Source of the DNA: Malassezia japonica
Lineage: Eukaryota; Basidiomycota; Malasseziomycetes; Malasseziales; Malasseziaceae
Direction of reading: 5' to 3'
DNA length: 64,000 bases
Assembly (NCBI RefSeq): GCF_029542785.1
Contig: NC_083370.1
Span: forward strand, 124,001 to 188,000
The position numbers and the translations under genes are program-made. Numbering within the stretch: the stretch's first letter is position 1; each line of letters begins with the position of its first letter. The notes below the pieces were generated by a model that saw only the letters and a program-made list of their open reading frames with translations, made no database searches and was not told the origin of the DNA. Shown here one piece after another: positions 1 through 61,575 of the stretch.

Positions 1-991
1 GCGGCTTGGTGTAGATGCGCACGAGGTTCAGCTCGTCCCACATCTTGTCCACCAGCTCGTCGACGTTCAGCCACTCGCGCGAGGAGATCGGGACCGACTG
101 CGGGATCTTGTACAGCAGGTCGAGCTCCTCGATCGAGATGCTGTCGATCTTGTTCAGGACGTAGATGCACGGGATGTAGTGGCGGTTGCCCTCGACCACG
201 TCGATCAGCTCGTCGACGGTGATGTCCTCGCGGAAGGCAATGTCGGCGTTCGCGATGCGGTACTCGCTCATCACCGCCTTGATCTCGTCGTGGTCGATCT
301 TGGTGAGCGGCACGGTATTGGTAATCGCCAGGCCGCCCTTGTCCTTCTTCTTCACAATCACGTTCGGGGGGCGCTTGTTCAGGCGGATACCAAAGCCGTC
401 CAGCTCAGCCTCGAGGATCTGCTTGTCCTTCAACGGCTTGCACACGTCCAGCACGATAAAGATCAGGTTGCACGTCCGTGCCACAGCAATGACCTGGCGA
501 CCACGACCCTTGCCGTCCTTGGCACCTTCGATAATACCGGGCAGGTCGAGCACCTGGATCTTGGCACCGCGCACTGTCATGGTACCAGGAACGGTGGTCA
601 CTGCGTTAGTCGTGAGACGTACGTGTTGTGAACTCGTAGGCAGCCGCCTCGGACGTCGTTCCCGTGAGACCCGACATGCTGCGTGAGAGAAAATCGACAT
701 ACAGTGTAGATTTACCGACCGACGGGAAACCGACAAAGCCCACACTGGCGATACCAGTGCGTGCGACATCGAAACCGAGGCCGCCGCCGCCGCCGCCGCC
801 GCCGCCGCTCGACGAGATCAGCTCACGCTTGAGCTTGGCGAGCTTCGCACGCAGCTGGCCAAGGTGGTAGGCCGTGGCCTTGTTCTTCTGCGTGCCTGGG
901 GTTAGAGGTGCAACATACGGTTCATCTCATCTTCGACTTCTTTGATCTTTTGTACGGTCGTCTGCGTCAGTCAGCCAGCGCCACGCACCAT
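1..991 (-). CDS. RBG1: Developmentally regulated GTP-binding protein, DRG1/Rbg1 family (3' end cut off)
   Basis: OBG/DRG-family translational GTPase that works with ribosomes. Exons 991-989, 961-919, 895-703, 678-623 and 600-1, so introns are 27, 23, 24 and 22 nt. Spliced, the protein shows the DRG N-terminus ([14 protein letters not shown]), a nine-glycine linker, P-loop [12 protein letters not shown], the EFTTLTTVPG switch region, [18 protein letters not shown] and the NKID specificity motif. The order and wording match DRG1/Rbg1 rather than DRG2. The first exon is the ATG alone. The C-terminal TGS domain lies beyond the left edge. It is divergent from the Mam3-like gene with 106 bp between start codons. 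Identity is secure; the 3-nt first exon is an inference from the frame. Confidence 0.93.
781..807. repeat. (CCG)9 trinucleotide repeat coding for polyglycine
   Basis: Nine uninterrupted CCG units, read as nine glycines on the minus strand inside the Rbg1 gene, between the N-terminal helix and the GTPase domain. DRG1 proteins usually carry a glycine-rich linker here, so the repeat is probably tolerated and likely to vary in length between strains. Confidence 0.9.
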
Positions 992-1097
992 CGTGCCGTT
1001 CCCTGCCAAAAAGTGGAGCCGCACCCCTGCCGAAGAAGACGAAAGAAGCTCGGCCGAAAGCAGCGGTCGCGGGCTTGGACCTTAATTTTTCCACGGC

Positions 1098-2927
1098 ATG
1101 GTAAGCGAAGCGCTGGGGGGTGGTCGAACGCGCTCCGGGATATCTTCGCAGTCTACAGCCAAGCTCTTGCTCGCTCTTGTTTCCTATGGTCTGCACTCGT
1201 TGGTTGCGGGCGTTCGCGCGACGCCCGTGACGCCGTTTGCCGTCGCGCCGGCCTCGCCGGGCGCTGCCGCGGCCTTCGCCGCGGTGCAGATGCACGAGGG
1301 GGTTGCACCGATTGAGAACAAGACGCCTGTGCAAAAGATGATCGACCTGGTGATGATTGGCTTATTGGTACTGCTGGGCGGTGTCTTTGCGGGTCTTACG
1401 CTCGGCCTGATGGGCCTCGACATGGTCAACTTGCAGGTGATGATGACCTCGGGTACCGAGCAGGAGCGCATCAATGCGACCAAGGTGATGCGCCTGCTCG
1501 AGCGCGGCCGCCACTGGGTGCTGGTCGTGCTGCTCCTGGGCAATGTCATTGTCAACGAGACGCTGCCCATCTTCCTCTCGGAGTTCGGCTCGGGCCTCAG
1601 CGCGGTGATCCTCTCGACGGTGCTCATTGTCATCTTTGGCGAGATTGTGCCCCAGTCCATCTGCGCGCGCTATGGACTGTCGATTGGCGCCATGTGCGCG
1701 CCGCTCGTGCACTGCGCCATGATCCTCATGGCGCCGGTCGCGTGGCCCACGGCCAAGCTCCTCGACTACTGCCTCGGCGAGGAGCACGGCACGACGTACC
1801 GCAAGGCGGAGCTCAAGACCTTTGTCACGCTCCACCAGCAGATCGGCACAGAGCACCTGAACGACGACGAGGTGACGATCATCCGCGCAGTGCTCGACTT
1901 GAACGACAAGACGCTGCGCGATGTCATGACCCCGATCGAAGACGTGTACACGCTGCCGAGCGACCACGTTCTCGACGAGCCGGCGGTCGACAAGCTCGTC
2001 GACTCGGGCTACTCGCGTGTGCCGATCCACGAGCCGGGCAAGGACGATGCGATTATCGGCATGCTCCTCGTCAAGCGCCTGATCCAGTACGACCCGGAAG
2101 ACGGCTGGCCCGTGTCGCGCTTTACGCTCACACCGCTGCCAGAAGCGTCGCCGGAGCTGAACCTGCTCGACGCGATCAATTACATGCAGGTCGGCCGCTC
2201 GCACATGATCCTCGTGTCGGAGCACCCGGGCGAGCCGAGCGGCGCGCTGGGTGTCGTGACGCTTGAGGACATTATCGAGGAGATGATTGGCGAGGAGATT
2301 GTGGACGAGACGGACGTCTTTGTCGACGTCCACAACAAGATCAAGGTCGTGCGCCAAAAGCCGGCAGGCATCAAGCAGGAGCAGTGGCAGCCGCTGATCC
2401 GTGGCATCATCGAGCGCCGCCGCAAGTACGGCGGACCGCAGCAGACGCCGCTGCACTCGTCGTTCGGCACGATCTCGCGCCACAACCGCTCCACGAGCCA
2501 GAGCAGGTTCGGCGTCGTGCCGCAGCGCAAGGCACGCGACAAGGTCTCGCTCAAGCACCTCGGCTCGTACACGCGGGGGTACGACTCGCAGAGCGAGATG
2601 TCGCCGGGCTTTTCGCCGCAGCCGTTCCAGGCGGCGCAGGGCCAGATGTCGAGCTCGCTCATGTCGGACGCGTACAGCGACTATGCCGGCTCGCCCGATG
2701 CAATGCGCCAGCGTGGCGACGTATACCAGTCGGACCCCGAGCAGGAGTTTGAGGCGCAGGGGCCGTACATTGTCGAGATGGGCGGCAGCCAGAACCAGAC
2801 GCCGCGCGTCATCACGGTCGCCGATCTGAACAACCAGCAGGATTCCAAAGGGATGCGCACCCTCGCGGCCGCCGCGTCGGTGGCGCACGCCATGTCGGAG
2901 ACCAACAAGCAGAACGACGACAAATAA
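1098..2927 (+). CDS. MAM3: CNNM/Mam3-like metal transporter with DUF21 and CBS pair
   Basis: 609 aa, no intron needed. A hydrophobic N-terminus is followed by a DUF21 (CNNM) membrane domain at about residues 76-260, with several transmembrane helices starting at MIDLVMIGLLVLLGG and conserved NETLPIFL and FGEIVPQS motifs. Two CBS domains follow (about 275-400, from LRDVMTPIEDVYTLP to GVVTLEDIIEEMIGEEIVDETD). The remaining 200 aa are a polar, probably disordered tail. Yeast Mam3 and human CNNM proteins act in Mg2+/Mn2+ handling at vacuolar or plasma membranes; the location here is inferred. The ATG is followed directly by GTAAGC, which resembles a splice donor, but the uninterrupted frame makes an intron unnecessary. 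Confidence 0.9.
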   Translation: MVSEALGGGRTRSGISSQSTAKLLLALVSYGLHSLVAGVRATPVTPFAVAPASPGAAAAFAAVQMHEGVAPIENKTPVQKMIDLVMIGLLVLLGGVFAGLTLGLMGLDMVNLQVMMTSGTEQERINATKVMRLLERGRHWVLVVLLLGNVIVNETLPIFLSEFGSGLSAVILSTVLIVIFGEIVPQSICARYGLSIGAMCAPLVHCAMILMAPVAWPTAKLLDYCLGEEHGTTYRKAELKTFVTLHQQIGTEHLNDDEVTIIRAVLDLNDKTLRDVMTPIEDVYTLPSDHVLDEPAVDKLVDSGYSRVPIHEPGKDDAIIGMLLVKRLIQYDPEDGWPVSRFTLTPLPEASPELNLLDAINYMQVGRSHMILVSEHPGEPSGALGVVTLEDIIEEMIGEEIVDETDVFVDVHNKIKVVRQKPAGIKQEQWQPLIRGIIERRRKYGGPQQTPLHSSFGTISRHNRSTSQSRFGVVPQRKARDKVSLKHLGSYTRGYDSQSEMSPGFSPQPFQAAQGQMSSSLMSDAYSDYAGSPDAMRQRGDVYQSDPEQEFEAQGPYIVEMGGSQNQTPRVITVADLNNQQDSKGMRTLAAAASVAHAMSETNKQNDDK

Positions 2928-2978: not shown

Positions 2979-3351
2979 TTATCCGCCGTGTAGTGTGCTA
3001 ATAAACACAATGTAGTCATTCGGCTGCAGGACATAGTCCATCTCGCCTTCCAATTCCCAGTCGCTGTCATTGATCAGCACGAGAATGCCAGGGCGCCTAA
3101 GGTCAGCTGACAAATAAAGTACGCACACGCTGTCGCCCTCCACAAACAATTCCTCGCGCTCTTGGATGAGATGTTGACGAATGAAGCGAATTAACGCGTG
3201 CATGTCGGGTGGGCCATCTTGCGTGGGTAGCGCAAGCTTGTGCACCTTCTCCTGAGGAGGGGCGAGCAGCAGCTCGGTGCCCCCGCTAGCGTCAGCGCAT
3301 GCTCGGACCGTACCCAAACTCAACCGTCACGGGAAGCGTGGCGTCGCCCAT
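2979..3351 (-). CDS. URM1: Ubiquitin-related modifier Urm1
   Basis: Urm1 is the sulfur carrier for tRNA wobble-uridine thiolation and a protein modifier. Exons 3351-3314, 3285-3127 and 3096-2979, with introns of 28 and 30 nt. Splicing restores [19 protein letters not shown] at the N-terminus and [18 protein letters not shown] in the middle. The protein ends in the diagnostic FISTLHGG tail, the diglycine needed for thiocarboxylation by Uba4. The length of 104 aa is normal for Urm1. It is convergent with the Mam3-like gene, with 51 bp between stops. Confidence 0.95.
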
Positions 3352-6580: not shown

Positions 6581-8214
6581 ATGTGGAGGACTGCCTATCG
6601 GATTTCCGACACCATAGATTCTTGGGGTATGGAGGACCCTGTGGAAAAGGCGTCGGGTCGCATCTGCGATCATATGAACCGGGACCATGACGTACGTGAT
6701 GAGACTAATTGTAGGACGCAGTTGGGCATTTTGTCATGTTTCACGGAAAGCTCGCACAGCTGCCTAAATGGACCAAGATGGAGCACATTTCGAGCCGAGG
6801 CATGGTCATCCGCTACTCTTCCCCGTCGTCCAAGGGACCGGTAGTAGACGAGAGTGTCATGCCTGCGATCTCTATCCCTTTTGAACCGCCGCTGGAAACC
6901 ACTATGGACGCACGCAAGCGGCTCGTGGCCATGAGCGAGTCGTGCGAAATAGCAAATGCCAAGTTCGCGCAGGCCTCGTCGCCCGAGTTTTGGAGCAAGT
7001 ACAATATGGATGTACTGCTGCAGTGGACGGACCGCGTACTGATGCACCCTGCGACGCTCACAGTCCTCGCCGTGCTGGCGATCCTCCTCGCAAGCCCCAG
7101 CCCGTTGCAGAGTGTTGCACTGAATGACGATCGGCGCACCGACAGCGAGCAGGTGGCGTTCACGGCATATACCTACGTGATACACTGCGTGCACATGGTG
7201 GTGCACGCTGTGCGCCTTCCGCTCCAGCTGCTGATTCTTCCTCTTGCCGTGATCCTCTTCATTCGTTTCCTCGGCTGGCTGAGCAGTGCATGGAGCAACG
7301 CGGCGCCGATGCCGAACGATATCGCCGAGCTGCCGACATGGGTGATGAGCACGCTCCTCACGCCGACGCTCCCTCCCCTGACGTCGGAGCAGTGGCGAGA
7401 AGAGAAAGTGGTCATCACAGGAGGTGCGCGCGGTCTTGGCGCTGTGCTGGCACGGCGCCTGGCCGACAAAGGCGCGCATGTGATCACGCTCGACGTCGCC
7501 AAGTCGACTGTAAAACACGCAAATGTCGTGGCGTACCGTTGTGACATTTCCAAGCAGAACGAGGTGCTTTCGGTGACACGCAACATTCTCCACCGCCACG
7601 GCGCCCCCACGATGCTGATCAATAATGCGGCGGTGCGGAATGGCTACCCCCTGCTGGACGTTTCCGTGAGTGACATTGCGCGCGTGATGGACACAAACAC
7701 AATGGCTCACTTTTGGACCTTGAAAGAATTTCTCCCCTCGATGGTCGAAAAGAAGCGCGGCCATATTATCACGGTGTCTTCGATGATGGGCCAGACCGGC
7801 GTTGCACAGATGGTCGACTATGTTGCATCGAAGCATGCGCTTGTTGGGCTGCACGATTCCCTCCGTTTCGAGCTGGACTCGATTTACAAGACGCCGTTCG
7901 TGCGTACGACCATTGTCACTACGGGGCATCTGCAAGAGACGAGCATGTTCTCGGGGATCCAGTATAACGCATTCGCACGCTTTTTTGCACCCCCCGTTAG
8001 CACCTCGAGCGTGGCTGACGCTGTGGTGGATGCCCTCGAAAGCCAAGAGAGCCGCACCGTGGCGCTTCCGTGGTACGCAGCATGGACGCCCGCCTTGCGT
8101 CTCCTTCCGTCGTTTGCGCGCGATGGAGTTCAGGCGCTGCTCGGCGCGAACCACTCCATGACCACAGCTCCGAAAGCAGCACCGGATTCGAGTGCCGATG
8201 CCCTCTCTACGTAA
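6581..8214 (+). CDS. DUF2470 membrane protein fused to a short-chain dehydrogenase/reductase
   Basis: Exons 6581-6691 and 6715-8214 (23-nt intron), 536 aa. Splicing joins SGRICDHMNRDHD to DAVGHFVMFHGK, giving an intact DUF2470 opening (HMNxDH). The DUF2470 part continues through IPFEPPL and DARKRLVAM, followed by two hydrophobic stretches (about residues 150-230). From about residue 265 a classical SDR domain begins: TGGARGLG cofactor motif, NNAA, an SS pair before MMGQTG and the YVASK catalytic motif. This resembles retinol/17-beta-hydroxysteroid dehydrogenase-like membrane SDRs. The two parts are normally separate fungal proteins. Met at 6629 is an alternative start. Substrate unknown. Convergent with the peroxiredoxin gene, 25 bp apart. 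Confidence 0.82.
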
Positions 8215-8239: not shown

Positions 8240-8928
8240 CTAGGCGCTCTTCGAGCTGGGGTCCTCGGTGAAGCGCAGGTACGGACGCACGGTCTCGTAG
8301 CCAGGGAAGAGCTTCTCAGCCTCTTCGCCCTGGACGCTGGGGTGGACAATGACCTTGTCGCCCTTTTGCCAGTTGACAGGCGTGGTGATGCGGTGCTTGT
8401 CACCCAGCTGCAGCGAGTCGACCACACGCAGGATCTCGGTAAAGTGGCGGCCGGTCGAGGCAGGGTACGAGATCTTCAGGCGGATCACCTTCTTGGGGTC
8501 GATCACAAAGACGTCACGCACAGTGAAAGGAATGCCCTTGGCGTCGACATTGGTAGGGTCGAGGGCGTCGAGCATGTCGTACTCGGTTGCGACCTTGCGG
8601 TCGTGGTCGCCGATGATGGGGAACTGCACATCGGTCTTGCCAATGTCGTTGATGTCCTGGATCCACTTCTCGTGCGAAGCAATGTCGTTGGCCGACAGAC
8701 CAATGACCTTCACACCACGCTTCTCGAACTCGGGCGCGAGGCGGGCGACCTCACCGAGCTCGGTGGTGCACACCGGCGTAAAGTCATCGGGGTGCGAGAA
8801 GAGGATGGCCCACGAGTTGTCCAGCCAGTCGTGGAAGCGGATGGTACCCCTGTGGTTAGGCAAGAAACGTACTTGGTGGTCTCAGCAGTAAAGTCAGGGG
8901 CAACGGAGCCAAGGCGAAGGTTCGGCAT
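8240..8928 (-). CDS. 1-Cys peroxiredoxin, Prx6 type
   Basis: Exons 8928-8873 and 8849-8240 (23-nt intron), 221 aa. Reduces hydrogen peroxide and lipid hydroperoxides. The peroxidatic cysteine is Cys46 in DFTPVCTTELG, preceded by FSHPDDF. The C-terminal 1-CysPrx domain includes ISYPASTGRHFTEILRVVDSLQ and TPVNWQKGDKVIVHPSVQ, which marks the Prx6 subfamily. Splicing yields TAETTKGTIRFHDWL. The N-terminus (MPNLRLGSVAPDF) shows no obvious presequence, so a cytosolic form is likely. It is not the PMP20-type thioredoxin-fold protein known from Malassezia allergen work. Confidence 0.95.
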
Positions 8929-10592: not shown

Positions 10593-13384
10593 TTACATCA
10601 CGCTACAGTCCTCCATAATTTTAATGCCGTACAGTTCGCCATCGATGTTGCTCTCGATCGATTTAAAATCGCTGCGCGAGCGGAGGAACTCGTACATCTC
10701 CTCGGAACGCATGGTGCCGCCGCTGAGTGTCGCATCGCGCACCATCTTGGCGAGCTCTTTTGGCTCATCGACAATGTACAAGCTGCCGACGCGCTTCAAT
10801 GCGCCAAATACCGAGGTCAGAGCAGGCTGACGTAGGGTCGTAATGAAGGTATAGTAGGCGTTCAAGTCACTAATGACTTGGAATCCGCCGTTGAGCGAGA
10901 CAATTTGGCGCTTGAGGTGCTTGCACAGTACGGCATACAAACGGAATCCAATCTCTTGGTAGAACACGTCCAGGAGCGCCTTGTCCGTGCACGAGGCCAG
11001 CATGTCGCAGTAGGTTTTCAGTGTGGCGCAGCAGTGAACACAAGCCCGGGTCGGCTCCGCAACGTCCAAGGCAGCATTCGCCTCTGGGTAAAAGTCACGC
11101 GGCCCCTGGTGCGTGAGGACAATGTGCTCGACATGATGCACAAGCAGCTCAACCCCTGCGCTCATGCCTTGTGCCACATTCTCATCCAGGTCGTTTTCCA
11201 TACGCTTCTTTTCGCGTACGGCTGCGTTCGTAAAGTCAATCTTGCCCAGGAGGGGCGATGCGACGCGGTCAAAGAAGACCTGCATCATCTGCTGAATGGT
11301 ATCACCAATGTGCACCAGCTCAAAAAAGAGAATGAGCGGGCCGACATGCTCCGACGCATCCGTCACGCCGGCTCGGTCCTTGTCGTGCTGCACAAAGTCG
11401 TACGTCCCGATCTCTTCACGGGCTTTGCTAAATCCGGGCCGGAGATGACCGTCGTTTAGCATCGCAAAGAGCTGGACTACAACGCGAATCGACGCCGCTC
11501 GGACACGCCCATCGTCCTCTAGCTTTCCGAGTGTCTGGAAACGCTGGAGAGAGAGGCGGACGACATTTACCAGCTCAATCGCCGTCTCGAGCGACAGCAT
11601 CGAGGACATGGCAAGGGGCTGCGGCGATACGCTGCGCGACCGCGCCACGTTCTCGCTGGGCGGCAGCGAAAGCGTCGGGGGTGGCGCAGGCGTCGCAGCA
11701 GGCTTTACCGGCGAATCTTCGTCGTCCCATGCATCGTCGTCCAGCGCGCTGGGCACTTCGCCTACGCCCACGTAGCCCTCATTTTCGTGATCGGGCGCAG
11801 GCGATGCACGGCGCGAATGCTCTGCACTCGATCCCCGTGGAAGCGTGCCCGAGCTCACGGAGCGCGGGATTGACACGGCCGGCGTGAGCAGCGCTCCTTT
11901 AAATTTGGACAGGAACGAGCGCTTCTCGGCGGCTGACTGCGGCGCAATAGGCGCCATTGATTCGCGGTGCTCGCGGACGACATTGTCGAGCTGCGTCAGA
12001 AGGTCGACGTACGTTGCGCTGCCACTTTTCGCACTGAGTTTCAAGCAATCCCTTCGCCCACAGCTCCTCGGCAGCGAGGTATTCGCCGAGGTGCGCGGCC
12101 CATACGCCGCCAACGACGCTCTTTGCATCGCTCAACGGGACGTGAGGCGCGATGCTGACCACGGCATCTGCCAGTGGCAGTAGTGCCTCGTACGAACGCG
12201 CGTAGGCCTCGAGGTATACGTATGCCGAGTGCGCCTCGGCGTCCTGCACAAGGCCAGCGAGATAGTCCGCTAGCTGCGTGAGTTAAAACACGTACCAAAT
12301 CTGTAGCGATCTTTTCGAAAAAGACCAGCTCAACGCCCTGCTCTTGCGGAAAGATGCGCTGCAGGAGCGTAATCTCTTCGATGAGAATTTGCTCGAGATG
12401 TGCCTCGAATGCCTTGACTGGTGCGAGCGTAAAAGCGGACTCGCTGCGCTCCGAAAATTTGATGCACTCTTTTGGGTTGTGGGGAATCTCTTGGTGAAAT
12501 ACGGGGCGTTCGTTGACGTGTGCAAAGGCAATGCCGCTGCCGCCGAGGGCGTGCATAGCCGCTGCGCGGGGCGGCCGCTTGGCAACAGCCTCGTCCGGGC
12601 CCAGGAGCCAGACCATGTGGCGCATCTTCCACGCGAGCGCGGCGTACTCCTTCATCGCAGTTTCCGCCTTTACGGTCTCGAGGCCCTTGGCGCGCTCGGC
12701 CTCTTTGGCCATGTACGCCGAGCGAAGCTCCATGTCCAAGTAGCCGACCACTTGCCGGAGCTTATTTTTTGCGGCCAGACTTTCGAGCGCAGCCGGAAGG
12801 CCTTGCACGAGCGACGATGCCATGCGCCCAAGGTTTCCCATAAGCGCGCACTGGGCCTCGAGTCCATTGACGCTGGGATGCGTAAAGAGAAGCGAGGATG
12901 TGGTGCTCGACGCGTCCAAGATCGACGTATAGAAAGGGCGCAGGACCGTGTATGCACGCTTGACGCGGTCGCTATAAGGATGCTCTGAAGCCGCTTCACC
13001 GTCCAGATCCAGGTCGGCCAGCAGGTCGATCGCGCCGCGCGGCACTTCTTTTGGCTTTTTTGGTTGAATGTCAGTGATTGGCGGGGGCGGCGTGTCCAGG
13101 AGCGCATCAGGGAGTCCTTCGACCCTTTCCCATGCCATGCGGTCCCAACGCGCCTTCCATAGCGACTCGTCACGCACCAGCTCCTGCATCGCATGCGACG
13201 CTTGAGCCACCAGTGGCAGGCTGGCAACCGGCACATGGTCGAGTATGCGGTGGACTACTTGGCGCGGCAGTCCACGCATGCCCAGTTCTTCATCCTCCGC
13301 ATGGAATACTGCGTGCACGCCTCCTATACCTTCTCCTCCAGTCGAAGACACCCGCGTAGGCGCCAGCGGGGTCCAGCGGTCCAT
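10593..13384 (-). CDS. RCY1: Recyclin-1-like F-box protein with Sec10-like domain
   Basis: Exons 13384-12296, 12273-12013 and 11990-10593 (two 22-nt introns), 915 aa. An N-terminal F-box (about residues 39-80, LPRQVVHRILDHVPVASLPLVAQASHAMQ split over two helices) is followed by a long helical region related to exocyst Sec10, in the order seen in yeast Rcy1 and fission yeast Pof6. A serine/proline-rich loop lies in the middle. Rcy1 works in endosome-to-Golgi recycling and cell separation. The second splice joins EKWQRN to LDNVVREHRES. The start at 13384 is the first Met before the F-box that stays clear of the divergent Spo7-like gene. Confidence 0.87.
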
Positions 13385-34668: not shown

Positions 34669-37011
<2,343 letters not shown>

Positions 37012-46647: not shown

Positions 46648-48774
46648 ATGTTCCGCCCCACTCTACGGACGCTTTCGCAGGCGCAATCCCAAGCGTCTGC
46701 GGCTACTGGCCTGAACTCGCGTCGGCAACGTGGCCGCGGCGTGGTCCTGATCGCTGCTGCGCTCACCGGTGCTTTCGCCGCTTATGCGCTCACGCCCCGT
46801 AAATCCGAGTGGGACGAGAATGTATCGCATGACATCCGCCCTGCGCTGCACTGGTCGCCGCCCACGCGTGCACAGATGATCGAGGCCCTGAAGAAAGGCT
46901 CGCCCGACTCGCTGCGCTCGGACGGCAGCCTCGAGCAGATGCGCTCGCTCCTTGTGCCGGAGCACAAGGCGGTGGGCAGCAGCCCCATCCCCGAGGTGGA
47001 GCACGCCTACTCGGGCAGCAATGATGATGACGGCTTCGACCTGCTGATCATTGGTGGTGGTGCGACGGGTGCCGGTGTTGCCGTCGACGCGACCACGCGT
47101 GGCCTCAAGGTCGCCGTGGTGGAGCGTGACGACTACGGTGCGGGCACTTCGTCCAAGTCGACCAAGCTTGTGCACGGTGGTGTGCGCTACCTGCAGAAGG
47201 CCATCATGCAGCTCGACTACGATCAGTACAAGATGGTCCGCGAGGCGCTTCACGAGCGCAAGACGTTCCTGCACATTGCTCCCTACCTGAGCCACAGTCT
47301 GCCCATTCTGATTCCTGCGTACGCTTGGTGGAAGATTCCCTATTACTACGCTGGCACCAAGCTGTACGACCTCATTGCCGGTGAGGAGAACATGGGCAGC
47401 TCGTACATGGTGGGCCGCGACAAGACGCTCGAGATGTTCCCCATGCTCCGTCCCCACAACCTTGCCGGTGGTGTCGTGTACTACGACGGTCAGCAGAACG
47501 ACACGCGTATGAACATCGCACTGATCCTCAGTGCCATCCAGCACGGCGCTGTCGCCGCGAACCACACCGAGGTGATCTCGCTGATCAAGAACCCCGGTGC
47601 CGACGGCAAGGAGCAGATCACGGGTGCTCGCGTGCGCGACCGCTTCACCAACGAGGAGTTCAACATCAAGGCCAAGGTACGTTTACTAGACTAACACCAG
47701 GGTGTGATCAACGCGACTGGTCCTTTCTGTGACAGCATCCGCAAGATGGACGTGCCCACGGCGGCCGAGATTGTTGCTCCGTCGTCGGGTGTTCACATCA
47801 CCTTCCCTGGCTACTTCTCGCCGAGCGGCATGGGTCTGCTCGACCCTGCAACGAGCGACGGTCGTGTCATCTTCTTCTTGCCGTGGCAGGGCTCGACCAT
47901 CGCCGGTACCACTGACACGGCGGCCAAGGTCGAGGACCACCCCGTTCCTGGCGAGCAGGAGATCCAGTGGATCCTGGACGAGGTGCGCAACTACCTCAAC
48001 ACCGACGTCACCGTCAAGCGCTCGGACGTGCAGAGCGCCTGGAGCGGTCTCCGCCCGCTGGTCAAGGACCCCTCGGCGAAGGACACGCAGAGCCTTGTGC
48101 GCAACCACCTGATCAACATCAGTGACGCCGGCCTCCTCACCATCTCGGGTGGTAAGTGGACCACCTACCGTGAGATGGCCGAGGAGACCGTCGACAAGGC
48201 CATCGAGGCGTTCAAGCTGCACCCCCTGCGCGGGTGTGTCTCGAAGCAGGTGCGCCTGATCGGTGCGCACGACTGGTCGCGTACCATGTACGTGCGCCTC
48301 CTGCAGGAGTTCAGCCTGGACCTCGACGTTGCGCAGCACCTTTCGCACTCGTACGGTGACCGTGCCTGGAGCCTGTGCGCCATCGCCGAGCCTACCGGCG
48401 AGCGCTACCCCAAGCACGGCGTCCGCCTTGACTCGCAGCTGCCCTACATCGAGGCAGAGGTCCGCTACGCTACCCGCATGGAATACGCCGCAAAGGTTGC
48501 CGACTTTATCGCGCGTCGTTCGCGCATGTCGTTCCTCGACACCGAGGCCACGATCGCTGCCCTCCCCCGTGTGATTGACATCATGGGCGAGGAGCTCGAC
48601 TGGTCCGAGACCCGCAAGCAGACCGAGTTCCAGGAGGGTATTCAGTTCCTCGCCTCCATGGGTGTCGACCCCCAGCGCGTCGCCGAGCTCGCCAAGACTC
48701 CGCTCGTCGAGGCCCGCCGCTGGAAGGACTCTAACCCGCCTCCCCGTGCAGCCGCGGCCCCCGTTGCGCTGTAA
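46648..48774 (+). CDS. GUT2: Mitochondrial FAD-dependent glycerol-3-phosphate dehydrogenase
   Basis: Exons 46648-47676 and 47701-48774 (24-nt intron), 700 aa. Oxidises glycerol-3-phosphate at the outer face of the inner membrane. A basic presequence and a hydrophobic anchor (GVVLIAAALTGAFAAYAL) precede DLLIIGGGATGAGVAVDATT and the long FAD-binding motif TSSKSTKLVHGGVRYL. The dehydrogenase and C-terminal domains follow, with LLTISGGKWTTYREMAEE. Splicing joins NIKAK to GVINATGPF. An in-frame ATG at 46540 would add 36 residues; I prefer 46648 because a possible 5'-UTR intron covers the upstream one. Codon bias suggests strong expression. Confidence 0.95.
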
Positions 48775-48810: not shown

Positions 48811-49424
48811 TCAACTACCCTGTGAAGGTGACGCAGATCGCCGGCGAGTCCGGCGGCGGCGGTGCGCATCGTGCCGCGCGGCACGCGCGGCCTCGGGCGT
48901 ATCATGCGCGGCGCGCGCGTGCCGCGAAGCATGCTGCAGCTTTTCCGCGCACGGATCGCACAGGACGACTTTGACTAGCGCCTGCTTCGCGACCATGCGC
49001 CCGTCTGCGTCCGGCTCCTCGTACGCAAACGGCACCTCGAATTCGCCGAGGGGGGGCGGCGCGTCGACCTCGTAGTGGTCGGCACACCGCTGGTTCGCGC
49101 AGCTGTCCTGCCCGATCCCGTCCACGACCTCGTCCTCGGTGCGCCAGCGCAGCGCAATGCCGCGTGTACGATAATGCTTCAGATTCGCAATGGCGTACTG
49201 CATAAGGACGCGCGACGTACCTCTTTGAAGAGCGCATCGTAGTACTTGCGTGCCACCTGCGCTTCGTAGCTCACTTCGTCGCGGTCGTCGTGCAGAAAGC
49301 GGTGGTGCGCGCGCAGCACGTCGAGATCGGTCTTGCGTGAGGACGCTGTGCGCCCGCCACTCGTCTCGACGCGCGGCACAGCGCGCTCCGTACCGCGACG
49401 CTCCGCGCCGGCCGCGGCGGTCAT
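48811..49424 (-). CDS. FRA10AC1-like spliceosome-associated protein
   Basis: Exons 49424-49221 and 49197-48811 (23-nt intron), 196 aa. RKYYDALFKE-YAIANLKHYRTRGIALRW crosses the splice and matches the FRA10AC1 domain, followed by EVVDGIGQDSCANQRC and LCDPCAEKLQ with cysteines that probably bind zinc. In animals FRA10AC1 associates with the late spliceosome; no fungal role is established to my knowledge. The C-terminal 30 residues are basic and low-complexity. Convergent with GUT2, 36 bp apart. Note the weak branch motif CTTAT in its intron. Confidence 0.88.
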
Positions 49425-49460: not shown

Positions 49461-50381
49461 CTACGGCGCGGCGAGCTGGCTGCGCTTCCGGGTGGTGTTC
49501 ATGTACGGCCGGAGGACCCACTCGACGTCCGCCTCGCTCTGCTCCAGCGTGCCGAGCCGGATCTCGTACGGGCGCATATCAAATCGCGGCCCCACCTCGG
49601 CGAGGTGTACCTCGCGGTGCGATGCGACAAACACATGTTGCCTGCGTTAGCTCGACCACGTACCGGAAAGAGATAAAGTCGTTATTGTTGGCAAAGGTCA
49701 TGACACGCTTCGAGTCCTCCTTCGGGACCGGGAACAAGAAGCGCAGTGCGTTCTTCACGCGGTCGCCGAGGCGCCCCCCGAAGCCGTCCAAGATCAGGTG
49801 GGGATACTGCTCGCTCACCGTGCTGTTGCTGTGGCTTGCGACCTCGTGGCGCAGCGTAACATTGTGCAGCGTAAAGAGGAGCGTCGGGCCATGGGGGAAG
49901 TGCGACACGATCAGCGCATCCGGCACGCCGCGGTGCTCGTGCACGACCACCATATCCGTCACACCGTTCGCGCGCGCGGCGGTCGCCAGCTCCTGCATCG
50001 TGTATGCACCGCGGTTCAGCCGCGTCGAGTTGGGAAAGACGAAGCGCAGCTCCTTGGCAAACTGCGACAGGCGCGACGAGGGGCTGCGCGACGTCGTGAT
50101 CAACACACGCGGATCGTACTGCCCTGCACGCGAGTACTCGTCGTCAATGGACGTCTGCGGCACGGCCTGCGCCTCGTCCAGCGTGAGGTTTTTGGCGAGC
50201 TCCTGCGCCTCGGGGCCGCGCAGCTCGGGCGGCAGCGGCTTGCCACTCGCGAGCGCCTCGCGGATTTTTTGCTTGCGCTCGTAGATCTGGCGCTGCTTTG
50301 ACTCAAGCGCCTTCTTATACACGTACTCGCGCCGCTCGCGCGCTTGGCGTCGCAACTGGGTCAGGGCGCTCCACGTACCAT
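49461..50381 (-). CDS. IMP4: U3 snoRNP protein Imp4
   Basis: Exons 50381-50379 (ATG only), 50355-49664 and 49641-49461 (introns 23 and 22 nt), 291 aa, the usual size. Spliced start MLRRQARERREYVYKKALE matches Imp4. The Brix domain includes VLITTSRSPSSRLSQFAKEL, FPNSTRLNRGAYTMQEL and LILDGFGGRLGDRV. The second splice gives ISFRQHVFVASHREVHLAEVG and the C-terminus ends DVEWVLRPYMNTTRKRSQL. It works in 18S rRNA processing in the nucleolus. Confidence 0.95.
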
Positions 50382-50891: not shown

Positions 50892-51522
50892 CTACGGTTT
50901 GGCACGCCGCCCACTCTTGGTGGCGCTGCGCATCTGCTTCTCTCTCTTGACGCGCTCGCGGTGCTTCTTTTCGAGGCGTGCGACGCGCTCTTTCTGCTCC
51001 GGTGGCGTATCGCCACGCAGGCCGTCGGCGGCAATACGTAGCACCTCGGCATGCAGCTGTGTAAGGCGACGTAGTGTACATACCTTGCTCAGCGCATCCT
51101 GCACATTCTGCGACTGCGTCCGGTGCCGCTCGCTCGAGACGTGCAGCGCATGCGCGGATTGGACGTAGAGCGGCTGATTCGTGAGGGGCGACGACCTACC
51201 GACTGCTTCGCGAGGTCGCGCACGAGGCCCGCAGGGAGCGGCTGCCCCTGGAGATCAAAGCGCGCGTGCACCTTGGTGTTCACTGCATTAGCGTCGCAGC
51301 CTACCCTTGTTCACATTCTGTCCGCCGGGGCCCGAACTGCGCGCATAGGTAATGTGCACCGCGCCTGCGTCAGCCATACCACCTACCGCGCTCGAACGGC
51401 TGCGCGCGAAACGCATCTACCCACTTTCGCCGCGCGCTCGGATCCTCCCACGCGACCGGTGCCGCGCTAGTAGTCAGGGGCCGCGCCCACACCCACCCCG
51501 CACGCACCACCCCTCGCAGCAT
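50892..51522 (-). CDS. Mitochondrial class I release-factor-like peptidyl-tRNA hydrolase (ICT1/Pth4 type)
   Basis: Exons 51522-51387, 51364-51305, 51282-51200, 51173-51084 and 51056-50892 (introns 22, 22, 26, 27 nt), 177 aa. A mitochondrial leader (MLRGVVRAGWVWARPLTTSA) precedes YARSSGPGGQNVNKVNTKVH, which holds the catalytic GGQ and is complete only after the second splice. SPLYVQSAHALHVSSERHRT follows. There is no codon-recognition domain. The C-terminal helix is lysine/arginine-rich, as in ICT1/Pth4 proteins that enter the mRNA channel to rescue stalled ribosomes. It was invisible as a long ORF, being split into five short exons. Confidence 0.9.
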
Positions 51523-51631: not shown

Positions 51632-53227
51632 ATGGCGGGCCCCCGGTTGTCGGAAAAGGAGCTCTTTGAGCTGAATGCAAAGGCTGCGTACGTATGCCGC
51701 ACTAACGAGTCAGTGTGCAGAATTACAGTGTGGAGCCGCGTCTGGATTACCGGACAGTGTCGGCTATCAATGGGTACGTCGATTGGCTAACGCAGTCCGC
51801 TAGTGGTGCTGGACAATGTCAAGTTCCCCTCGTACAACGAGATTGTGTCGCTGACGCTCCCTGACGGCTCGACGCGTGGCGGTCAGGTGCTCGAGGTGTC
51901 CGGCAGCAAGGCCATCGTCCAGGTCTTTGAGGGCACTTCTGGCATTGACGTGAAGGACACGCATATCGAGCTCACGCGCCACTCGATGAAGCTCCCCGTG
52001 TCCGAGGACATGCTTGGCCGTGTGTTCAACGGCTCGGGTAACCCCGTCGACAACGGCCCCAAGGTCTTTGCCGAGGACTTTTTGGACATCAACGGCTCGC
52101 CGATCAACCCGTACTCGCGTGCCTACCCCGAGGAGATGATCCAGACGGGTATCTCGACCATCGACACGATGAACTCGATCGCCCGTGGCCAAAAGATCCC
52201 CATCTTCTCCGCCTCGGGTCTGCCGCACAACGAGATTGCCGCGCAGATTTGTCGCCAGGCCGGCCTTGTGAAGCGCCCGGGCGCCGGCAAGGGTGTGCAC
52301 GACGACCACGAGGACAACTTCAGCATTGTCTTTGCGGCGATGGGTGTGAACATGGAGACGGCCCGCTTCTTCAAGCAAGACTTTGAGGAGAACGGCTCGC
52401 TGGACCGTGTGACGCTCTTCCTGAACTTGGCCAACGACCCGACGATTGAGCGTATCATTACGCCGCGTCTCGCGCTGACCACCGCAGAGTACTTTGCCTA
52501 CCAGCTCGAGAAGCACGTCCTCGTCGTGCTGACCGACATGACCTCGTACGCCGACGCGCTGCGTGAGGTTAGTGCTGCGCGTGAGGAGGTGCCGGGTCGC
52601 CGTGGTTACCCCGGTTATATGTACACAGACTTGGCCACGATCTACGAGCGTGCTGGTCGTGTGCAGGGCCGCAACGGTTCGATCACCCAGATCCCGATTC
52701 TGACCATGCCCAACGACGACATGACCCACCCGATTCCCGACTTGACGGGCTACATTACCGAGGGCCAGATCTACGTCGACCGGCACCTGTACAACCGTCA
52801 GATCTACCCGCCGATCAACGTGCTGCCGTCGCTTTCGCGTCTCATGAAGAGCGCCATCGGCGCAAAGCACACGCGTGCCGACCACGGCGACGTGTCGAAC
52901 CAGATGTATGCTGCGTACGCCACCGGTCGTGACGCCGCCTCGATGAAGGCGGTCGTCGGTGAGGACGCGCTGAGCCACGAGGACAAGCTCACCCTCGAGT
53001 TCATGGAACGCTTCGAGAAGGAGTTTGTCACGCAGGGCGCCTACGAGACCCGCTCCATCTTTGACTCGCTCGACATCGGCTGGTCGCTGCTGCGGATTAT
53101 GCCCAAGGAGATGCTCAACCGTATCAGCCCCAAGATTCTCAAGGAGTACTACTCGCGCAAGAGCTCCAAGGCACAGCCCGAGGAAGAGGAGCAGGCGAAC
53201 AAGGCGAGCGTCACCGACGAGAAGTAG
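51632..53227 (+). CDS. VMA2: V-type proton ATPase subunit B
   Basis: Exons 51632-51687, 51714-51773 and 51796-53227 (introns 26 and 22 nt), 515 aa. Non-catalytic nucleotide-binding subunit of the V1 sector. Splicing gives [39 protein letters not shown] and [17 protein letters not shown]. The signature [20 protein letters not shown] and [20 protein letters not shown] is intact. The C-terminal tail is charged. Length matches the family. Strong codon bias as in SDH2 and GUT2. Confidence 0.98.
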
Positions 53228-56064: not shown

Positions 56065-57046
56065 ATGTCTGTCGAGTAAGTTTTTTTTCGCGTGAGCTGA
56101 CCTCGTAGAATTAGCCCCCACGCGCAGCTCGGCTTCTCGCGTAGGTATTCACCCCTGCCATCCGCTAACCGCAGGTCCTCTGACCCAGGTCGTGAAGAAG
56201 TCGCTGACCATCACCAACTCGAACTCGCAGCCGGTGGCCTTCAAGGTGAAGACTACTGCGCCCAAGCAGTACTGCGTGCGCCCCAACTCGGGTCGCATTG
56301 AGGCTGGCGAGCGCGTCGAGGTCCAGGTTCTCCTGCAGCCCTTCAAGGAGGAGCCCCCGACGAGCGCCAAGTGCCGTGACAAGTTCCTGGTCCAGTCGGC
56401 GGTGATCTCTGCTGACAAGGAGACCTTGCCCATGACCGAGTTCTGGGCGCTCCAGGAGCGCGAGAAGGAGTCCATCTTTGAGCACAAGATCCGCTGCGCC
56501 TTCCTCCCCCCCTCTAGCGCTACGGTGCCTGAGGAGAACGAGGCGTCGGAGGGTGCGTACGACAACCAGAGCGCCATCCAGAGGGCCAAGGCGGCTGCCC
56601 TTGCTGCCGGCTCGGCTACGGCCGCCGGTGCGGGTGCGGCGTACGCCGCCGTCAAGGACCAGGGTTCGCGTGCTGTGACCGGTGCCCAGGAAGTCGTCTC
56701 GCCCGCCGTCTCGTCGCCGACTTCGGTGCGCAGCGCGGGTGCTGAGCCCCCGATCTCGATCGCCTCGCTGAACGGCCTCGCTGCGTCGCCCACCGCGGCC
56801 ACCACGACCTACCCCGCGACTTCGACTGCGGTGCCCGCTGCCGCCTACACCTCGAGCGTGCCGGTGACGGCCAGCTCGCCCCAGGAGCTCGAGGCCGAGG
56901 TGCAGCGCCTGCGTGCCCAGCTCGCCTCGCAAGGCGGCGTGGCCACCCGCAGCGGTGCCGTTGCCCAGAAGTCGAGCGGCGTTCCCGTGCACATTGTTGC
57001 TGCGATCGCCGTCGGTGTCTTTGCCATCACCTACCTGTTTTTTTGA
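56065..57046 (+). CDS. SCS2: VAP-family ER membrane protein Scs2
   Basis: Exons 56065-56075, 56109-56140 and 56175-57046 (introns 33 and 34 nt), 304 aa. Spliced N-terminus MSVEISPHAQLGFSRPLTQV leads into the MSP domain: VVKKSLTITNSNSQPVAFKV, KTTAPKQYCVRPNSGRIEAG, CRDKFLVQSAVI. This fold binds FFAT motifs at ER contact sites. A Ser/Thr/Ala-rich linker, a short coiled coil (SPQELEAEVQRLRAQLAS) and a tail anchor (VPVHIVAAIAVGVFAITYLFF) follow. The first two exons are only 11 and 32 nt. These are the two longest of the short introns here. Confidence 0.93.
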
Positions 57047-58875: not shown

Positions 58876-58927
58876 GACGCTTGGGCCCAAGCGCTGACAA
58901 ATCGAATTCGGCCTATTTTCTCATACG

Positions 58928-60006
58928 ATGACGTTAGCCACAGTTGGTGTGCGCCGTGCGCTGGGTGCGCGCCGTGTGCTTGCGCGGAGCCTGAGCACCG
59001 AGGCACAAACGCAGGTCGTAGAACAGTCCATGCAAGACATGGTGCGTCAGCGTGACTACCCTGCGTACCTGACGCACTTTGCCTACGACCGTGCTCTGCA
59101 GCCCCACTTTTTTGCGCTGCGCGCCTTCCACATCGAGCTTGCCTCCCTGAAAGACGCAGTGAGCAACGAGCTGGTGGGCCGCGTGCGCATGCAGTGGTGG
59201 CGCGATGCGATCGAGGGCATTTACAACGTACGTTCGACGTGCTTACCCAGAACCGCCCCCCGAAGCACCCCATTGCGCTCGCCCTCGCCGACGCCGTGCT
59301 CGACCCGGCGGTGGCGGCGCGCGGCCAGCTGGTCAAGGAGCACTTTCTCGCGATCATTGATGCACGCGAGACCGACCTCGGCGACCCCCTTGCGCCGCCC
59401 GCGCTCGCAGAGCTCGAAAAGTACGCCGAGTCGACTTCGTCGCGCATACTTTACCTCTTGCTGAACCTGCAAGGCGTGTCGGAGCGCGCGCTCGACGAAA
59501 TTTTCTCCCATCTCGGCAAGGCAATGGGCCTGAGTATTCTGCTCGGCGCGCTTCCGTTCCACACGCACCCCCCTCCCCGGCCACGCACCGGCGGCGGCGG
59601 CAATATACCCGGCCTGCCCGGCGCGGCGCGGTACGCTCCCCAGAGCGACGGCATTCCCCGCACGCCCACGCTCCCCCTTCCTCTGGAGTACCTCGTGCAA
59701 TGCAACGTGACCCAAGAGGATGTATACCGCAATGGAATCAACGCAAAAGGTCTACGCGACGCTATCTTTTACACGGCGACGCGTGCGAATGACTATCTCA
59801 TTACTGCGCGCACAGCGCTCCGCGATGCGTACGGCGGCGAGATGCCGGCGCCTGCCATTGGTCCGATGCTCTCGGCAGTAAATACACGCCAGTTTCTCCA
59901 GAAACTCGAGGCATGCGACTTCAACCCGTACGACCGCACCTGCCAGCAGCGCTCCTGGACGCTGCCCTGGCACATGTACCGCGCTGCGTACCGTCGGACT
60001 TTGTAG
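58928..60006 (+). CDS. NDUFAF6-like complex I assembly factor (squalene/phytoene synthase fold)
   Basis: Exons 58928-59227 and 59251-60006 (23-nt intron), 351 aa. A mitochondrial leader (MTLATVGVRRALGARRVLAR) is followed by a squalene/phytoene-synthase-like domain: RDYPAYLTHFAYDRALQPHF, FALRAFHIELASLKDAVSN, GRVRMQWWRDAIEGIYN joined to NRPPKHPIALALADAV. The aspartate-rich catalytic motifs of true synthases are degenerate, as in NDUFAF6. An insert of Gly/Pro-rich sequence (about residues 205-245) follows LLGALPFHTHP. It is expected to help build the ND1 module of complex I. Confidence 0.9.
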
Positions 60007-60106
60007 GCATATATGACTAAGCGACAATATATCCACGTGGTCCAGGAACGCGCACAGTGACTGGGGCTTGGCACTTTGCCTTCGGATCTTGGTCCGCGCG
60101 CACACG

Positions 60107-61575
60107 ATGAATGGCGTACCCTCTCCCAAGCGGAAGACGCGAAACTTTAAGGGTCTTTTGCTAAAAGACACCTCTGTGTCCCAGGCCGAGCGCGTGTCGC
60201 CCCTGGATGAAGCAGGCCGTAGTTTTACGCGCCTCATGCGCCCGCTGGGTGACTCGAAGGACAGCGCGACCTACGACAATCTGGCAGGCGTTGCACTGGG
60301 GCCACGGGCGTCCTCTCGCCTCGAACTGCCAGAGTGGTTTTCTCCGAAGCTTCGGCAACCCCACATCTCGCCGCCAAGGTCGAATGGATCCGGAGCGACA
60401 CAGGGCGCTTCGGAGCCCGGTCCGAATTATGCGCAGGCCGACGGGCAGGCCGTACCCAGTCTGTCGTCTGCGCCACTGTCAAACCGGAGTGCGGAGCTGT
60501 CCCAGCGCATCAATGGCATGCGGCTCCACAGCGACGACGACGCGTCGCAGCGGCTGGAGCTTAAGAACAGTAATCTCCGCACGGTCTGCGAGCTGGGCGC
60601 CGGCAACGGCGGAACGGTGACCAAAGTCGTGCACATTCCCACTGGTATCACCATGGCAAAAAAGGTCGTCTTCATTGATGCCAAACCCGAGGTGCGCAAG
60701 CAGATTTTGCGCGAACTCCAGATTCTGCACGAGTGCCAGTCGAATTACATCGTGAGCTTCTATGGAGCGTGCCTCAGCGACATTCACATTTACATGTGCA
60801 TGGAGTACATGGATGTAGGGTACGTTGGCTGACACTCACCGCAGGTCGCTCGACTCTATATATACCAAACACGGTCCGATTGATGCAGACGTCTGCGGCA
60901 AGATTGTGGTGACCGTCGTGCACGGTCTTTCGTACCTGTACGAGGTGCACCGCATCATCCACCGAGGTACGTTTTTTGCCCCCTTACCCAGACGTCAAGC
61001 CGAGCAATATTCTCGTGAACAAGCACGGCCAGATGAAGCTGTGCGACTTTGGCGTATCGGGCGAGCTGATCAACTCGATTGCGGATACCTTTGTCGGCAC
61101 GAGCACCTATATGAGTGTATGTACCCCCTGCTGACCCCAGCCCGAACGGATCCAAGGCGATCAGTATAGTATCAAGTCGGACGTGTGGTCGCTTGGAATT
61201 ACCATGATCGAGCTGGCGCACGGGTGTTTCCCGTTTGCACTCGACAGCGAAGACACCCTGCACGCGCCCGAACATTCGACGACGACCGCGGCAAGCCTAG
61301 GCGGCGCCCCGGCGTCGCGCCCTGCCCCCCAGCGCCAAGCACAACCAATGAGCATCTTGGAGCTGCTACAGCATATTGTATACGAACCTCCTCCACGGCT
61401 GAGCGCCGACATGCATTTCCCCGCGTCTATGGTTCGGTTTGTGGACTTATGCCTAAGTAAGGACCCTACAGTACGCCCCAACCCCATGGACTTGCGGAGT
61501 CACGAGTTTGTGCGCCAATCCGAGGCCAGTCCCATCGACCTGTCGGCGTGGGTACGCCGATTGGGGTATCATTAA
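60107..61575 (+). CDS. MAP kinase kinase, Fuz7/Ste7/Byr1 type
   Basis: Exons 60107-60819, 60845-60966, 60992-61116 and 61141-61575 (introns 25, 25, 24 nt), 464 aa. An N-terminal MAPK docking-like motif ([12 protein letters not shown]) precedes the kinase domain: [23 protein letters not shown] with the ATP lysine, [29 protein letters not shown] and [19 protein letters not shown], with phosphosites in SIADT. The HRDVKPSN and YMSPERIQG motifs are completed by splicing. [10 protein letters not shown] marks the mating-pathway MEK rather than Mkk1 or Pbs2. A proline/alanine-rich insert lies before [13 protein letters not shown]. Confidence 0.95.

Follow-up and report, generated by a model that had tools for sequence, protein, structure and literature searches.

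Coding introns pinned at 22 nt in a 64-kb window of the Malassezia japonica genome

How short can an intron become in a fungus and still be spliced? In the skin yeast Malassezia japonica the question is raised by a stretch of 64,000 nucleotides (the window), in which roughly half of the introns identified have a length of exactly 22 nt, and this pinning is confirmed here. Counting of the short introns was based on the window motif listing of 68 rows, which gives 30 introns of 22 nt with spacers of 7 and 1 and 11 introns of 23 nt, the same numbers as in the initial annotation; one row, 51692-51713 (22 nt, the 31st of that length), was dropped because it is nested within the 26-nt intron 51688-51713. 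With the 15 introns of 24-34 nt (14 from the motif listing, and 3286-3313 from gene models only) the total is 56 introns in 28 genes (Table 1), slightly fewer than the 58 in 29 genes counted before, of which a 185-nt intron and one other could not be located. The gene model underlying 3286-3313 and 3097-3126 is weak. Twelve rows of the listing were excluded as nested, antisense or beyond the coding models; among these, 3742-3769 may be an intron of a 5' UTR, and 13423-13441 (minus strand) is a 19-nt match beyond the gene models. The gene models contain a single intron shorter than 22 nt (19 nt, 50356-50374), which was rejected as the tail of the IMP4 23-nt intron 50356-50378.

Table 1. Introns of the window and their support. 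L, length-flat model; G, gene models; M, motif list; H, hand splicing; S, strict pattern; D, domain match; P, product equal to public protein. The names Spo7-like (13695-13938) and ligase-like (17339-18156) are those of the initial annotation.
Intron and gene	Position	Strand	Support
22 nt, DRG1/Rbg1	601..622	-	L, M, H, S; gap-free to Rbg1
24 nt, DRG1	679..702	-	M, H; Rbg1 alignment
23 nt, DRG1	896..918	-	L, M, H; Rbg1 alignment
27 nt, DRG1	962..988	-	M, H; Rbg1 alignment
30 nt, weaker gene model	3097..3126	-	L, G, M
28 nt, weaker gene model	3286..3313	-	L, G
23 nt, dehydrogenase/DUF2470	6692..6714	+	L, M; inside PF10615
23 nt, 1-Cys peroxiredoxin	8850..8872	-	L, M; inside PF00578
22 nt, gene unnamed	11991..12012	-	L, M, S
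22 nt, gene unnamed	12274..12295	-	L, M, S
22 nt, Spo7-like	13695..13716	+	M, H
22 nt, Spo7-like	13785..13806	+	M, H, S
22 nt, Spo7-like	13917..13938	+	M, H, S
22 nt, BIR-domain gene	14871..14892	+	L, M, S; inside PF00653
22 nt, ligase-like	17339..17360	+	M, H, S
22 nt, ligase-like	18018..18039	+	L, M, H, S
22 nt, ligase-like	18135..18156	+	L, M, H, S
25 nt, Fer2_3/Fer4 iron-sulphur protein (presumably SDHB-like)	19232..19256	-	L, M; inside PF13085
22 nt, eIF4E-family	22591..22612	+	L, M, S; upstream of PF01652
22 nt, HUB1/UBL5	23910..23931	-	L, M, S, P; inside full-length PDB match
22 nt, HUB1/UBL5	23946..23967	-	L, M, S, P; PDB match
22 nt, HUB1/UBL5	24023..24044	-	L, M, P; PDB match
22 nt, HUB1/UBL5	24128..24149	-	L, M, P; PDB match
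22 nt, PIN-domain gene	24561..24582	-	L, M, S; inside PF13638
23 nt, PIN-domain gene	24899..24921	-	L, M; inside PF13638
23 nt, mitochondrial carrier	25531..25553	-	L, M, D
22 nt, mitochondrial carrier	25842..25863	-	L, M, S, D
22 nt, mitochondrial carrier	26008..26029	-	L, M, S; inside PF00153
22 nt, presumably inner-membrane-peptidase-like	26474..26495	+	M, H
22 nt, gene unnamed	27619..27640	-	L, M, S
22 nt, small Cys-rich gene (presumably CHCH-like)	29607..29628	+	M, H
22 nt, SEC23	34673..34694	+	L, M, S; junction precedes Sec23-aligned part
23 nt, SEC23	34894..34916	+	L, M; junction gap-free vs Sec23
22 nt, TIM14/PAM18	39183..39204	+	L, M, S, P
22 nt, TIM14/PAM18	39322..39343	+	L, M, S, P; gap-free to TIM14
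22 nt, TIM14/PAM18	39442..39463	+	L, M, S, P; TIM14 alignment
23 nt, gene unnamed	43466..43488	-	L, M
28 nt, gene unnamed	44455..44482	-	L, M
23 nt, Rad17/Rad24-family	44769..44791	+	L, M, D
22 nt, Rad17/Rad24-family	44879..44900	+	L, M, S; inside PF03215
24 nt, gene unnamed	47677..47700	+	L, M
23 nt, Fra10Ac1-family	49198..49220	-	L, M; inside PF09725
22 nt, IMP4-like (Brix)	49642..49663	-	L, M, S; inside PF04427
23 nt, IMP4-like (Brix)	50356..50378	-	M, H
27 nt, ICT1-like (RF-1 domain)	51057..51083	-	L, M; inside PF00472
26 nt, ICT1-like	51174..51199	-	L, M, D
22 nt, ICT1-like	51283..51304	-	L, M, D
22 nt, ICT1-like	51365..51386	-	M, H, S
26 nt, V-ATPase subunit B	51688..51713	+	L, M; junction gap-free
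22 nt, V-ATPase subunit B	51774..51795	+	L, M, S; junction gap-free
33 nt, MSP-domain gene	56076..56108	+	L, M; inside PF00635
34 nt, MSP-domain gene	56141..56174	+	L, M, D
23 nt, SQS_PSY-family	59228..59250	+	L, M; inside PF00494
25 nt, protein kinase	60820..60844	+	L, M; inside PF00069
25 nt, protein kinase	60967..60991	+	L, M, D
24 nt, protein kinase	61117..61140	+	L, M, D

A motif-blind gene finder with a flat length prior of 8-200 nt, run on 264 kb, placed 28 introns of 22 nt and 13 of 23 nt and recovered the GTACGT...CAG ends, while the same finder given seven control dinucleotide pairs placed only 1-4 at 22 nt and 0-3 at 23 nt with no peak at 22, which excludes a chance origin of the peak. 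With learned splice signals, still length-neutral, 74 of 163 introns in the 264 kb were of 22 nt, and of the 140 model introns with lengths of 22-40 nt, 62 differed from 22 nt, forming a tail upward from 23 nt. In the window the length-flat models placed 33 of the 41 introns of 22-23 nt (23 and 10, respectively), and the remaining eight were spliced by hand to open frames (three in the Spo7-like gene and one each in the ligase-like, IMP-like, CHCH-like, ICT1-like and IMP4 genes). The frame support claimed earlier is borne out, as all 41 leave an open reading frame on removal. The strict pattern GTRNGT-Nk-CTNAC-N-YAG with k=7 (22 nt) matched 24 times in the window against 0.02 expected from shuffles, and every one of the 24 is a frame-supported intron. 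Genome-wide, with the reversed pattern as control, there were 2,576 matches at k=7 (control 4), 325 at k=8 (control 1), 98 at k=9 (24 nt; control 4) and 91 at k=10 (25 nt; control 7), and 4 at k=6 (21 nt, branch-to-3' spacing unchanged; control 6). A peak at 22 and 23 nt could also arise if multiples of three were avoided because their retention would escape nonsense-mediated decay, as neither length is divisible by three and 21 nt is rare; however, 24 nt is as common as 25 nt in the matched pattern and no avoidance is seen, making this explanation highly improbable.

The gene products give the same picture. Spliced Tim14 (three 22-nt introns removed) and spliced Hub1 (four removed) are each 100% identical over full length to a public M. 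japonica protein, and the intron segments are absent from both of these public products. Comparison of the spliced products with Rbg1, TIM14, V-ATPase B and Sec23 left no gap at the covered junctions, and spliced HUB1/UBL5 equals its UBL5 PDB match in length (71 on 71 residues). Judged by frame, homology, motif and public gene products, the segments are probably spliced from mRNA, with A17 as the likely branch point. We give almost no credence to the reading of the segments as retained coding sequence or chance matches, as it is opposed by the 2,576 matches against 4 in the control, by the frameshift that retention of 22 or 23 nt would cause, by the gap-free junctions and by the two public products.

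A 22-nt intron opens with the six bases of the 5' splice site, in most cases GTACGT, followed by a 7-nt linker, the branch motif CTNAC with its A at position 17, one base and CAG. The linker (positions 7-13) is nearly free in sequence with 0.07-0.55 bits per position, so that conservation does not extend throughout the intron; preferences are weak, position 9 being G in 1 of 90 introns and position 13 a purine in three quarters. Two distances have a floor. Between the 5' splice site, taken at the first base of the intron, and the branch A it lies at 16 nt and is a hard edge; between the branch A and the last G of the 3' splice site it lies at 5 nt and is softer. When motif sites of the 264 kb were arranged by 5' spacer (k) and 3' spacer (m), 90 of the 190 sites with k>=7 and m>=1 fell in the corner (7,1), and no site had k=5, k=6 or m=0. 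A further 14 of 204 sites had k<5; these are presumably noise, the reversed control totalling 30 over all spacings. Forms of 21 nt that are short only on the branch-to-3' distance number 40 genome-wide (control 1), all outside the window, and of the 17 inspected in their loci one clear (L044) and one less clear case (L038) would bring an in-frame stop if retained. The branch-to-3' splice site floor can thus probably be broken. The earlier statement that no intron is below 22 nt stands for the window, where the single 19-nt model is artefactual, and probably does not extend to the genome. The sharp lower edge is evident from 2,576 matches at 22 against 4 at 21 nt, as would be expected if the spliceosome of this lineage set the minimum, although there are really two edges, one of them soft.

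It is likely, and we hold this with moderate confidence, that the 22-nt class represents ordinary U2-type GT-AG introns which have shrunk to the smallest size that the M. japonica spliceosome can process. The linker would have to span the gap between a 5' splice site bound by U6 and a branch site bound by U2, and the first floor would be geometric because 7 nt is the shortest workable linker here; the second would be softer because the choice of the AG waits until the second step. Introns may be driven down to the floor by deletion pressure or by selection for compactness, and purifying selection would eliminate those that fall below it; the same threshold-plus-deletion idea has been stated for mikrocytids (PMC10245619). 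In the genome U6 was found above the cut-off with the standard ACAGAGA box. A U2AF65 homologue scored 224 bits with U2AF_lg, below the model cut-off of 310 and with two bacterial control genomes also matching weakly, and was confirmed by comparison with U2AF65 chains. U1 (RF00003) and RED_N (PF07808) gave no match in the genome, and none in the control genomes either.

If introns simply eroded against a wall under a constant deletion bias, the ratio between successive lengths should stay the same, but the net ratios were 0.13, 0.29 and 0.89, indicating an excess at exactly 22 nt and a flat tail. Being at one floor also goes strongly with being at the other (90, 13 / 35, 52; Fisher p 9e-12), which suggests that there is a compact class beside a relaxed one and that the two distances did not erode independently. 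The excess at k=7, this association and the weak linker preferences would all agree with 22 nt being a preferred optimum and not a wall alone, the spliceosome working fastest with both helices on a 7-nt linker, selection keeping introns right at that corner, with longer introns as a separate, slower class. We regard this as rather unlikely: a pure optimum would tolerate 21 nt nearly as well as 23 nt, yet k=6 is at background and k=8 has 325 matches, and a one-sided wall is therefore needed besides the optimum. Another tentative possibility is that an opisthokont spliceosome contains a true spacing ruler: this yeast clade would have a compact splicing mode that engages the 5' splice site and the branch helix at once over the 7-nt linker, far below the human minimum of roughly 50 nt. 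If so, the early cross-intron stage of U1 and U2 must be changed or bypassed, and 22-nt introns would form a functional class in which both distances are fixed, and not the mere end of erosion. Recent gain as templated, introner-like 22-nt units, with size reflecting origin, would explain why a single length dominates the genome, but is very unlikely, as the linkers compared among 90 introns of 22 nt resemble one another hardly more than after column shuffling and lack copy similarity (identical pairs 2 against 1.0 expected, one-off 21 against 17.6, two-off 147 against 119.9), and the same signals are common to introns of 23-34 nt.

With both internal distances at their lowest usual value, the 22-nt introns provide a natural measure of the lower size limit for a spliced intron in a fungus, and the 2,576 matches of one geometry amount to a saturation experiment, done by nature, on the smallest substrate of the spliceosome. 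The question of the minimal substrate is testable, since a transformation system exists for two Malassezia species (PMC5654937). Such genomes would probably be misannotated by gene finders and aligners whose intron minimum is 20-30 nt.

Malassezia introns have already been called "very short" in print (PMC7426719), and those of M. restricta have a mean of 37.2 and a median of 30 nt; a 22-nt mode or spacing floors do not appear in the passages on the genus (PMC7426719, PMC9241646, PMC4634964), and 22-nt pinning was not found in the literature searched. The annotated mean of 76-79 nt in M. globosa (PMC4634964) means that the pinning may not hold genus-wide. Nor is 22 nt a universal minimum, as introns of 15-16 nt are reported in heterotrichs, 16-17 nt in mikrocytids and 18-21 nt in a nucleomorph (PMC10245619); Trichomonas has introns of 23 nt (PMC12316389). 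The initial annotation, which held that few lineages beyond nucleomorphs and some ciliates approach 22 nt, left mikrocytids and Trichomonas off its list. Of the traits of ultra-short introns of nearly fixed length, those of M. japonica show the sharp mode at or below about 25 nt but not the near absence of longer introns. Mikrocytos mackini is alike in its nearly fixed length (217 of 224 introns of 16 bp), but this intracellular parasite has only 224 introns, of 16-17 nt and conserved sequence, and a strongly reduced spliceosome (PMC10245619), whereas M. japonica has thousands of pattern matches, a nearly free linker and a retained U2AF65 homologue. The fixed length is shared with Stentor and other heterotrich ciliates, which are unrelated protists (PMC10245619, PMC12316389), and the narrow range with the chlorarachniophyte nucleomorph, a relict algal nucleus with >800 introns (PMC10245619). 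In human short introns that need Smu1 and RED the limit is likewise the distance from the 5' splice site to the branch, but its minimum is about 50 nt (PMC6692369) compared to 16 nt here, and the yeast spliceosome must therefore, it seems, assemble or activate differently.

A scan of the whole Malassezia japonica assembly (8,433,779 bases in 9 contigs, both strands) with the pattern GTRNGT-Nk-CTNAC-N-YAG gave 2,576 matches at a 5' spacer of k=7, that is, introns of 22 nt, against 4 for the reversed control; all genome-wide figures are pattern matches, with individual inspection confined to the fetched stretches. At k=6 (21 nt) there were 4 matches (control 6), while k=8, 9 and 10 had 325, 98 and 91 (controls 1, 4 and 7). 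The other route to 21 nt, k=7 with a branch-to-3' spacer of zero, was matched 40 times (control 1). When both spacers were varied over 264 kb of fetched M. japonica DNA, 204 sites were obtained (reversed control 30), 90 of them at the corner where both are minimal, i.e., 16 nt from the 5' splice site to the branch A and 5 nt from there to the 3' splice site. No site in this sample had a 5' spacer of 5 or 6 or a branch-to-3' spacer of 0, and 14 of the 204 were scattered over 5' spacers 0-4. For the 190 sites in which neither spacer falls below its floor, the minimum at one spacer was associated with the minimum at the other (90, 13 / 35, 52; Fisher p 9e-12). Avoidance of multiples of three was rejected, as 24 nt is as common as 25 nt (98 vs 91), and an introner origin was rejected by comparing linkers among introns. 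Matches below 22 nt with CTRAC numbered 33 against 16 in the control, and at least five of them are tails of longer introns that have the same 3' end under other patterns (see the table); one of these is also among the four k=6 matches. In the 264 kb, introns of 22-36 nt were more frequent in the 5'-most quarter of genes than further along (54, 32, 31 and 21 by quartile), a bias commonly interpreted as loss via cDNA.

The same lengths came from a gene finder supplied only with codon usage and GT/AG dinucleotides, all lengths of 8-200 nt being equally likely. On the 264 kb, 28 of its introns were 22 nt long and 13 were 23 nt, where seven other dinucleotide pairs gave 1-4 and 0-3; one of the seven was GC-AG, a rare intron type in its own right. 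GT-AG had 6 introns in the 8-21 nt bin against 14-25 in the controls, and 48 against 50-66 in the 61-200 nt bin, which is mostly noise. Most of the 22/23-nt segments shared GTACGT, CTNAC and CAG, of which the gene finder had no prior knowledge. With signals learned and length still flat, 74 of 163 introns in the 264 kb were of 22 nt and 22 of 23 nt; members longer than about 40 nt in this set and in a set of 160 include false ones. The strict 22-nt pattern has 24 matches in the window where 0.02 are expected, all 24 with frame support; for the strict 23-nt pattern there are 3 where 0.01 are expected.

The motif listing of the window comprised 68 rows, from which one nested 22-nt row was removed, and 12 rows were left out of the intron count. 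Among its rows are 30 introns with a length of 22 nt and 11 with 23 nt, in full agreement with the initial annotation, whose total of 58 introns in 29 genes came down to 56 in 28, with 15 of 24-34 nt; its 185-nt intron and one other were not located. Length-flat gene models placed 33 of the 41 introns of 22/23 nt, and the remaining 8 left open frames after hand splicing. Two of the 15 longer ones belong to a weak gene model, and a 19-nt intron in IMP4 was rejected on hand splicing. The first motif-rich gene model ran introns too long, and a first-YAG rule was added to stop this; one intron of a ligase-like gene was still overextended and was fixed by hand splicing.

Features located in the window (positions 1-64,000, lying at C1:124001-188000) or, where a contig is named, in the M. 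japonica assembly (G000)
Position	Strand	Feature	Remark
601-622		intron	574-622 in first motif-rich model
3097-3126		intron of 24-34 nt	weak gene model
3286-3313		intron of 24-34 nt	weak gene model
3742-3769	+	28-nt intron-like match	directly upstream of first ATG of gene 3814-6411; could be 5' UTR intron
17339-17360		intron of ligase-like gene	17339-17567 in first motif-rich model; still overextended with first-YAG rule
22591-22612		intron	22591-22651 in first motif-rich model
23886-24195	-	HUB1/UBL5	73 codons; four introns, each exactly 22 nt
53298-54410, 54598-55710	-	tandem pair of intronless 370-residue proteins	alike by eye
C1:221363		sub-22-nt match	tail of longer intron
C1:729476		sub-22-nt match	tail of longer intron
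C1:794545		sub-22-nt match	tail of longer intron
C3:233710		sub-22-nt match	tail of longer intron
C3:583435		sub-22-nt match, k=6	tail of longer intron
C9:362333-363724		U2AF65 homologue	locus L050

Removal of three 22-nt introns from Tim14 gave a product identical to the public M. japonica protein across 148 residues, and removal of four from Hub1 gave the public M. japonica Hub1 across 73 residues; judging from these sequences, both public products checked are already without the 22-nt segments. Junctions were free of gaps in the alignments of DRG1 with ribosome-interacting GTPase 1 (four introns), Tim14 with TIM14 (two of three introns within the aligned part), V-ATPase B (two introns) and Sec23 (one of two covered), and Hub1 aligned with UBL5 over 71 on 71 residues, spanning all four introns as judged from the alignment ends. 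A Pfam scan of 20 of the spliced proteins from the window gave matches for each, two with matches below cut-off only (DUF150_C in one protein, Pam16 and DnaJ in Tim14). HUB1/UBL5 is itself counted among the human spliceosome B-complex proteins (PMC6692369).

The rare 21-nt form, present at 40 places in the assembly, is almost always GTACGT-N7-CTCACCAG. GTACGT was found in 39/40 sites against 56/78 matched 22-nt sites of the 264 kb (Fisher p 5e-4) and CTCAC in 36/40 against 23/78 (p 3e-10), with CTAAC and CTGAC in only 2/40; stop avoidance as the cause of this scarcity was ruled out by the mixed phases. Seventeen of the 40 sites were inspected in 16 fetched regions (L030-L045), and the reading frame was taken as clear in 11 loci, in 8 of which the 21-nt 3' end scored highest; in L031, L038 and L042 a longer 3' end was slightly ahead. 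At the 6 remaining sites the frame was not clear. Retention would bring an in-frame stop in two of the 11, L044 and, with a less certain 3' end, L038, and as a length of 21 nt is divisible by three, frame cannot separate the other nine from retained coding sequence. Among the k=6 sites, L046 and L048 had a good frame once the 21-nt segment was removed, whereas in the case of L047 and L049 the higher score went to a 3' end further on, L049 being the tail of a 25-nt match.

The 22-nt introns have one base only between the branch motif and YAG, and the U2AF65 homologue is kept although this leaves no space between branch and 3' splice site in which a pyrimidine tract could lie. The homologue scored 224 bits with U2AF_lg, a model whose cut-off is 310 and which also matched two bacterial control genomes weakly. 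It aligned with U2AF65 chains across the two central RRMs (E 4e-35) and a portion of the C-terminal domain. The one U6 gene found has an unchanged ACAGAGA box; searches of the genome for U1 and RED gave no match, and the control genomes were likewise without one. In about three quarters of the 90 introns of 22 nt in the 264 kb, base 4 is C, which by pairing rules pairs with neither U1 nor U6. The linker, positions 7-13, is largely free; the exceptions are position 9, where G occurs in just 1/90, and position 13, which is a purine in three quarters.

In human, the minimum from 5' splice site to branch is about 50 nt, attributed in work on Smu1/RED to a separation of 15 nm between two extended helices of the B complex (PMC6692369). 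A distance of 16 nt is incompatible with that geometry, from which we infer that in the spliceosome of this yeast the helices would be shorter or brought together at an earlier stage. For mikrocytids, deletion pressure against a functional threshold has been proposed (PMC10245619), and here, too, deletion pressure may shrink introns down to such a threshold; it seems rather probable that erosion of this kind explains the one-sided length edge, which it fits. From each length to the following one the net ratio changes (0.13, then 0.29, then 0.89), so a single wall with a single deletion rate is too simple. The excess at exactly 22 nt suggests a preferred fit in addition to the threshold, a reading that appears less probable than erosion.

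'Very short introns' in Malassezia are already in print (PMC7426719): M. restricta introns have a mean of 37.2 and a median of 30 nt (PMC9241646), and its annotation used a minimum intron length of 20, later 15 nt (PMC6473144). The mean of 76-79 nt in M. globosa (PMC4634964) suggests that pinning at 22 nt may be limited to part of the genus. Among the open-licence literature matches listed and in their excerpts, there was no mention of a 22-nt mode or of the two floors. Fixed-length introns shorter than 22 nt are described elsewhere, at 15-16, 16-17 and 18-21 nt (PMC10245619), and the M. japonica case is thus a fungal addition to a known phenomenon. Mikrocytids and nucleomorphs both have fewer introns by far than M. 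japonica, in which the linker is nearly free.
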